The notes under the pieces: generated by a model
Databases searched by the model: none
Told to the model about the DNA's origin: nothing
Seen by the model: the letters and a program-made list of their open reading frames with translations, nothing else
Assembly (NCBI RefSeq): GCF_000013045.1
Contig: NC_007677.1
Coordinates: forward strand, 124,001-188,000
DNA from: Salinibacter ruber DSM 13855
GTDB lineage: Bacteria; Bacteroidota; Rhodothermia; Rhodothermales; Salinibacteraceae
Reading direction: 5' to 3'
DNA: 64,000 bases
Shown here: one piece after another, positions 36,950-49,175 of the stretch
Position numbering within the stretch: the stretch's first letter is position 1
How the letters are laid out: the number at the start of each line of letters is the position of its first letter
Translations under genes and position numbers: made by a program

Positions 36950-37562
36950 TCCCCCTCAACGGTCCCGCGACTGCACGGAAGACGTCGAGCCGGCCCCCGC
37001 ACGATCCGGTGCCGAGCCCCCAGTGAAGCGGCGTCGTGGACCGCAAGCGAAGAGCCTCCTCCGGGCCGGTCCGCGCAGCGCAGGCGGGCGGACATCTAGG
37101 GCCGGGATCGAGTATCCAATCCCGTGGCAATGCGTCTCTGTGTCTTCACAGCCTCACGGTGAGCTGGACCATCGCAGGTTCAGATGCTGTTCTTTCACAT
37201 TGAACGCGTGCTGACGTGTGCAGCACGACCGCCCTACGGGCCTAAGCGGCATTTAATAGGACGTGCCGTGGAGAATCCGGCCCAGGAATGGGGAGATGGG
37301 GCTAGTAGCAAGCCCTAAAGTGCTCCTCGTGGCGATTTCCAAACAAGGTCATTCCCAGAGAACCGCCTTAGTTCCATCGGGAAATGTGACCCCGGACTGA
37401 AGCTACTTCAGAGATTGAATCTTTTGGCGAAAGTATGTCCCGTGAGAGGCAAATTGATACTGTTATCATGCAGAAACTCTACATGTCTCCTGCCGGGACG
37501 CCAAAAGAGGTCCGCGCGATTACTGGAGGGTACCGTCTTGCTACCTTCCAGATAGTCTCCAT
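36950..37562. other. Non-coding stretch upstream of the group II intron
   Basis: About 600 bp without a convincing gene. A short frame from 37435 runs into the intron and could be the truncated 5' exon of an interrupted gene ('MSRERQIDTVIMQKLYM...'), but no continuation is visible beyond the intron. Confidence 0.4.
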
Positions 37563-38125
37563 GTGTGAGGGAGACACGGGGCCTATACCACGCTTTACGG
37601 TTCCGGTCGCGATAGCCCGGCTGTACTACCGGGTACAAGGGACAAGGGGAAGGCGGGACCTACATTTGGCGAGTGTGAATGAACCTGCGAATCCAGGATA
37701 CACCCAGTAGGATGGTAAGGTACCTAGATATACCGATGCCGGTTGGGTGTGGACGGAGTCCACGTAGTAGCCCAGGAGCAACCCGAAAGCGGTTGATACT
37801 GGCGAAGGTGGATAGCGGAGTCTCAAATACAAAGTACAGAAGATGACCGACGAAGTCCCGGACAAAGTGGTTTGAATCCACGGCAGGAGAGACCGGATAA
37901 AAATCCGGGAAGTGGTAGGGGACTTACAGCACCCTGAAATTGGAAGCCTGCCCTAGATGGGAAGGGACTGAAGTAAGCGTTCCTGAATGGGAATGTGGTA
38001 GGTCATCGCGGAAACGTGAGGCCGATGTGCCTCAATAGAGACTCCGTAGAGAGCCGAGGTACGCTGAAAGGTGTACGCCCGGTTCGGGAAGGAGAGGTTG
38101 GAAACGGCCTCTTAGGTATCTTAAC
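37563..38125 (+). mobile_element. ORF-less group II intron (boundaries approximate)
   Basis: The strongest sign is a domain V hairpin at 38051-38085. It begins gagcc, closes with ggttc, has the catalytic AGC triad near the 5' side, a GAAA tetraloop (ctGAAAgg) and an asymmetric bulge. A plausible domain VI stem follows (gagagg/cctctt at about 38091-38112), ending near ttaac, as introns end in AY. About 490 bases upstream the sequence GTGTG at 37563 matches the 5' consensus GUGYG, and the interval is full of small stems typical of domains I-III (for example ggataaaaatcc). There is no intron-encoded reverse transcriptase, so it would need a helper in trans. Confidence 0.65.
38051..38085 (+). ncRNA. 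Group II intron domain V
   Basis: A 35-nt hairpin: lower stem gagccg/cggttc, internal bulge, upper stem gtacgc paired with gtgtac through G-U, capped by GAAA. This is the most conserved element of group II introns and includes the metal-binding AGC triad. Confidence 0.7.
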
Positions 38126-38161
38126 AGATTAAACGCACCAACCTCTTACTTTCACCAGCCA

Positions 38162-38377
38162 ATGTTTGACGAAGAGCACTTTCCCCGAGAGTACGAGTGC
38201 GAAGGCTGCTCCACGACCGCCACGGTTACGCACGAGGACGTGCAGGATGTGCCGTCCTTCCTTGCGGCCACGACCGTGGCGGAGGCGGTCGAGTACGTGA
38301 TGACTGAACGCCGTCGGTGGTCGCTCCAGTCGTTCGAGGGGGCGTTCTGCCCCGCCTGCATGGAGGAGACAGACTGA
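38162..38377 (+). CDS. Small zinc-ribbon-like hypothetical protein
   Basis: A 71-residue acidic protein with two Cys pairs, 'YECEGCS' near residue 12 and 'FCPACMEE' near residue 63, which could bind one zinc. The middle is helical ('TTVAEAVEYVMTERRRW'). No named family is recognised. It starts about 35 bp after the intron's probable 3' end. Confidence 0.7.
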   Translation: MFDEEHFPREYECEGCSTTATVTHEDVQDVPSFLAATTVAEAVEYVMTERRRWSLQSFEGAFCPACMEETD

Positions 38378-49059: not shown

Positions 49060-49175
49060 GGCGGCAGGTGCGGTGCCCGTGCGCACCGCCCTGCGTCTCG
49101 GGGGAAGCCCGGTGAAATTCCGGCACTGTCGCGCAACGGTCAAAGTCCGAATGCCCGCTTGAGGAGCGACCCGAC
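49060..49175 (+). ncRNA. Cobalamin riboswitch
   Basis: The conserved core is easily read: ggggaagcccggtgaaattc then cggcactgtcgcgcaacggt then aaagtccgaatgcccgc. This corresponds to the GGGAA...GGTGAAATTCCGG...CGCAACGGT...AGTCCGA blocks that bind adenosylcobalamin. The 5' arm (ggtgcggtgcccgtgcgcaccgcc) forms the preceding stem. About 500 nt separate it from nrdB, the next plus-strand gene. In organisms holding both B12-dependent and B12-independent ribonucleotide reductases, this switch is known to turn off class I genes when B12 is available. Confidence 0.9.

Follow-up and report, generated by a model that had tools for sequence, protein, structure and literature searches.

ORF-less group II introns are considered rare in bacteria and no longer mobile, and C.te.I1 of Clostridium tetani has been described as the sole one without an IEP in its genome (review PMC4424553). 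Elsewhere, ORF-less introns are driven by IEPs of the same genome (PMC2882425). In representative genomes, 281 introns without an IEP have been recorded (PMC8919778), and therefore the ORF-less state as such was already known. We analysed a window of 64,000 nucleotides from Salinibacter ruber DSM 13855 (NC_007677.1, positions 124,001 to 188,000 of the forward strand), in which an earlier sequence-only reading had proposed an ORF-less group II intron in an intergenic region. We favour, with a probability of roughly 0.8, the interpretation that this intron belongs to a family of protein-less group II ribozymes, which would rely on an outside maturase and would choose their sites with either of two hairpins of domain I.

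The element, hereafter copy c1, is a complete ORF-less group II intron of 997 nt (window 37159-38155, + strand, GTGAG...CTTTCAC). The Rfam model RF00029 matched positions 38049-38155 with 49.3 bits (gathering score 40). A stretch of 651 nt around the finding was present five times in the genome, and RF00029 gave the same five places. When the five genomic copies (c1 to c5) were aligned with their flanks, a sharp start, GTGAGCTGGA, and a sharp end, CTCTTACTTTCAC, were observed, corresponding to 37159 and 38155. The c1 site was found to be empty in the genome of a sister species (G010), which fixed both ends to the base and revealed no duplication: the c1 flanks are uninterrupted there (96% identity over 300 bp) and join exactly at the insertion point. 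The empty site reads CCTCACA, versus CCTCACG in the filled 5' exon. The intron termini are GUGAG...CAC; the fourth base is A, not the Y of GUGYG, and the 3' end is of the AY type.

The earlier classification as an ORF-less group II intron was borne out by the RF00029 match, the five copies and a covarying structure of six domains. Domain V had been placed exactly right, as indicated by the significant match in the covariance-model search, and the possible domain VI suspected 3' of it is present. The position is indeed intergenic, in that a gap of 6 nt separates the intron from the start codon of the conserved 71-aa frame that follows it. The boundaries first drawn, 37563-38125, were both wrong: they are ruled out by the empty site and by the genomic copies, which share common 5' and 3' boundaries. 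The GTGTG at 37563 that had been taken for the 5' end is actually the delta nucleotide plus EBS1 in the loop of a domain I hairpin. The parts of copy c1 and its surroundings are as follows (window coordinates; domains were assigned by position within the consensus structure).

37138..37151, + strand: inverted repeat of the 5' exon, CTGTG(TCTT)CACAG, a perfect 5-bp stem directly upstream of IBS1
37152..37158, + strand: IBS1 (CCTCACG) in the 5' exon, from its 7-nt pairing with intron loop 2 and from the empty site
37164..37696, + strand: domain I, from the covarying consensus of nine copies
37523..37551, + strand: guide hairpin 1 of domain I, apparently unused at the c1 site, from the pairing tests; 7 pairs, 3 compensatory, no broken cell
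37555..37575, + strand: guide hairpin 2 of domain I, apparently used at the c1 site, from the consensus structure and the pairing tests
37562..37570, + strand: delta (37562-37563, TG) and EBS1 (37564-37570, TGTGAGG), together complementary without a gap to the 9 nt of exon sequence from -7 to +2 (p = 0.005 on its own)
37700..37750, + strand: domain II, from the consensus structure
37760..37811, + strand: domain III, from the consensus structure
37815..38047, + strand: domain IV, about 230 nt, structured, without ORF or ORF relic, from the consensus structure and tblastn
38051..38085, + strand: domain V, from RF00029; 14 pairs, 4 compensatory
38088..38152, + strand: domain VI, from the consensus structure
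38148, + strand: expected bulged branch-point A, 8th from the 3' end
Predicted spliced-exon junction of c1: CCTCACG^CAGCCAATG
38162..38377, + strand: reading frame of 71 aa carrying two CxxC pairs; its start follows the intron by 6 nt

The degree of structure greatly exceeds chance expectation. With RNAalifold, the nine ORF-less copies reached -577, compared with -388 for alignments with shuffled columns (sd 10; z = -18.5), and the single sequence also folded better than its shuffles (z = -5.9). The nine-copy consensus comprises 289 pairs, 79 of them with compensatory changes on both sides, and 96% of its cells are paired. We infer that the intron splices.

The close relatives that we found were all from Salinibacter or from Salinivenus iranica, which is listed as the same genus. 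ORF-less ones are carried by G010 and by plasmid pSR76 of S. ruber SP38; in another genome (G007), the copies lie at contig ends and were readable only in part. A DNA pattern scan of genome contigs matched only in Salinivenus iranica, the same type of scan gave no match in viral contigs, and the phage collection contained only a 49-nt domain V match. The site of c2 is empty in G010 and in a further genome, G003, while c4 and a relative, gC, have empty counterparts in paralogous repeats. Copy c5 sits inside c3 and is absent from gB, the G010 homologue of c3. Thus c3 and c5 form a nested pair (twintron), c5 having either entered c3 after the separation of gB and c3 or been lost from gB.

Could the introns simply be passengers of insertion sequences or other repeats, without retrohoming? 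Consistent with this, the c3, gB and pSR76 copies have a common 5' exon while the 3' exon of the pSR76 copy differs, c4 and gC lie within multicopy repeats, and transposase-like frames were noted nearby by eye; the first three copies may indeed also have moved with a repeat. However, c1, c2 and c5 are exact, duplication-free insertions in otherwise continuous DNA and each of them fits a guide loop, which makes the passenger explanation highly improbable.

The sequence-only reading had found no reverse transcriptase (RT) in the element and had suggested a genome search for a maturase. An RVT_1 search of the whole genome detected no RT, although the same model was positive for 12 of 60 related genomes and for control genomes, and an IEP query against the genome gave no match; neither search thus revealed a maturase elsewhere in the genome. 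An ORF remnant in domain IV was likewise rejected, as tblastn of three IEP sequences against the ORF-less copies, domain IV included, revealed no significant ORF relic in any of them. In G010, where ORF-less copies are also present, the only RT found (G010:C1:2438960-2439571, L046) was of the UG17 defence type (PADLOC, 440 bits), and it was rejected as a trans maturase on that ground.

RT-bearing relatives were found in S. iranica CB7 (RT of 545 aa, 380 bits with the group II RT/maturase model, GIIM and HNH domains), in another congener, G006 (530 aa, 351 bits), and on plasmid pSR84 of S. ruber M8, in which the IS1-type element ISSru2 interrupts the RT frame (L059 2936-4156, L060 1-1036). Because the genome has no detectable RT, the maturase would have had to come from outside, most likely from related full-length introns on plasmids or in other strains. 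Against this account, the RT gene of pSR84 is interrupted and the ribozymes of the other RT-bearing introns are only 66-83% alike over parts.

Evidence for movement came from the comparison of c2 with its relative gA. The two are 98.6% identical, though they occupy different sites in two species, and the flanking orthologous DNA is only 94-96% identical. Since their identity exceeds that of the flanks and c2 is absent from its G010 site, the ORF-less form most likely spread recently, after the lineages had split. The lack of ORF remnants in every copy indicates that it was the ORF-less form itself that multiplied. Such a move was presumably helped by a transiently supplied maturase, acting in trans.

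The sequence-only reading had left the choice between a trans-mobilised and a relic intron, the latter meaning that the copies are dead, fixed remains of RT-bearing introns that neither splice nor move. For a relic speak the missing maturase, the divergence between c3 and gB, which is about that of the flanking DNA, the interruption of c3 by c5, and the weakened domain V of c4 (CGGAUC instead of CGGUUC), from which it follows that not every copy need be active. On the other hand, dead remains fit poorly with the compensatory changes and the high proportion of paired cells, with the lack of ORF remnants, with the spread of c2/gA later than the species split, and with c5, which was inserted into c3 after the separation from gB (or was lost from gB). 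We consider a relic unlikely; the trans-mobilised alternative fits best the six-domain copies at different sites, their exact insertions and the near-identity of c2 and gA.

To see how sites are recognized, we compared the end of the 5' exon with the whole intron for complementarity. The best or near-best match fell in intron positions about 377-385 or 404-418, i.e. in the loops of two adjacent hairpins of domain I. Each of nine independent sites pairs with one hairpin over about -6 to +1, five with hairpin 2 and four with hairpin 1. The runs, with delta and the first nucleotides of the 3' exon included, were 7+2 (c1), 7+2 (c2), 6+1 (c5), 6+3 (gC) and 5+3 (pSR84) for loop 2, and 6+2 (c4), 6+2 (gA), 6+1 (gB) and 6+1 (the G006 intron) for loop 1. 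Hairpin 1 is thereby the predicted EBS1 for c4, gA, gB/c3/pSR76 and the G006 intron. Compared with random genomic sites, the seven ORF-less matches had p values of 0.002-0.023 each. When the nine introns were permuted over the nine sites, none of the 362,880 arrangements surpassed the true one, and the only one to equal it was the swap of c2 and gA, whose loops are identical, so that each holds the guide for both sites. The permutation test was also significant for the loop-1 users alone (p = 3e-4) and for the loop-2 users alone (p = 7e-5), and nowhere does the intron vary more than in the two guide loops.

When delta is taken from the loop in use, where it adjoins EBS1, it is complementary to the first nucleotide of the 3' exon at all nine sites. 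A fixed EBS3, a trait of subclass IIB, was ruled out: no alignment column pairs with the +1 nucleotide at all sites, and this nucleotide is C for c2 and G for gA, without a matching change in the intron. An EBS2-IBS2 pairing was sought between the unused hairpin and the IBS2 region, and an excess was found at only one of seven sites, that of gB; the intron was therefore not filed as IIA. Immediately 5' of IBS1, five of the seven sites carry an inverted-repeat stem (joint p about 0.007, for a window chosen after looking); its resemblance to group IIC targets is suggestive only.

These data also bear on the canonical IIA/IIB scheme, according to which hairpin 2 would be EBS1 and hairpin 1 EBS2, the matches of loop 1 to -6..-1 being due to chance. 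The order of the hairpins, EBS2 then EBS1, is as this scheme predicts. Yet hairpin 1 failed to pair with -15..-7 at the hairpin-2 sites (p 0.79 to 0.97), and it was hairpin 1, not hairpin 2, that paired with -6..-1 and +1 at four independent sites (joint p = 3e-4). Furthermore, the additional pairing with -15..-8 seen at the gB site involves loop 2 and not loop 1 (p = 0.008), which is the reverse of the canonical roles. We therefore regard the canonical scheme as quite improbable. Each site fits one of the two hairpins, and both hairpins are presumably functional guides.

A more far-reaching possibility is a bispecific intron, in which one RNA with two interchangeable EBS1-delta guides could invade two unrelated targets; we give this even odds. 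If so, c2/gA would be a direct example, both loops being identical and one site fitting loop 2, the other loop 1, though the claim that the same RNA uses both loops concerns this single pair, with p = 0.013 for the loop-1 match alone. Separately, we observed a potential pairing of about 17 nt between the insertion site of c4 (L012:9210-10207) and hairpin 1 of c2/gA, counting its stem; the run is 10+3 at the cut-off used, longer than that of c4's own loop.

As to genomic context, the 71-aa frame after c1 belongs to no Pfam family, and its region is conserved in G010 and G003. Copy c2 is followed, after 12 nt, by the apparent start of a frame resembling a membrane transporter by eye. At such sites, even an inefficiently spliced intron would presumably not disrupt the protein. 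Copies gA (L043 around 8891), c4 (L012 around 9209) and gC (L045 around 7742) are beside or in MazE/AbrB-like frames, as judged by a Pfam match for gC and by eye for c4 and gA; the sequences that received c4 and gA are partly similar, and the two copies are on opposite strands there. The window also contains an AdoCbl-II (cobalamin) riboswitch aptamer at 49099-49157 on the + strand (RF01689, 44.1 bits).

Taken together, we propose that a small family of ribozymes has spread through Salinibacter chromosomes and plasmids. The ribozyme would splice itself out of RNA and would enter new DNA by reverse splicing. Its insertion site would be picked by base complementarity that spans the junction from -6/-7 to +1/+3, about 7-9 nt in all, the pairing strand lying in one of the two adjacent domain I hairpins, either of which could serve.

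We found no description of Salinibacter introns or of two alternative EBS1 hairpins in the open literature; most subscription papers, including a 2008 survey of ORF-less introns, were outside its scope, so that novelty does not follow from the lack of such a description. If the hairpins are interchangeable, exon recognition would have more freedom than a fixed EBS1/EBS2 scheme permits; new target sites could then be reached in a simple way, and a two-address targeting vector might be conceivable.

Among known systems, group IIA introns such as Ll.LtrB share with the Salinibacter intron the delta beside EBS1 that pairs with the first nucleotide of the 3' exon, but here IBS2-EBS2 was not detected and EBS1 occurs in more than one hairpin. 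Group IIC introns (PMC10190682, PMC7923331) resemble it in that no EBS2 was detected and perhaps, on weak evidence, in the stem-loop that precedes IBS1 at five of the seven sites. Unlike them, it has an EBS1 pairing of 6-7 bp with an adjacent delta and a ribozyme of about 1 kb whose domain IV measures 230 nt, and an HNH endonuclease domain, absent from IIC proteins, is present in one of the RT-bearing relatives. TeI3 of Thermosynechococcus elongatus (PMC2882425) is likewise multicopy and ORF-less, with EBS changes that shift targets, twintrons and insertions in other mobile elements. However, its driver IEPs are in the T. elongatus genome, its introns keep ORF remnants, and it is a IIB1 intron with separate EBS1, EBS2 and EBS3. 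C.te.I1 (PMC3919590) also has no evident EBS2 and an altered EBS1-IBS1 pairing, but it occupies a single locus, with four DV/DVI repeats, alternative 3' splicing and no mobile copy family, and has one enlarged EBS1 loop rather than two alternative hairpins. In contrast with the description of ORF-less introns as rare and non-mobile (PMC4424553), the Salinibacter introns form a multicopy ORF-less family that spread through genomes with no detectable maturase.
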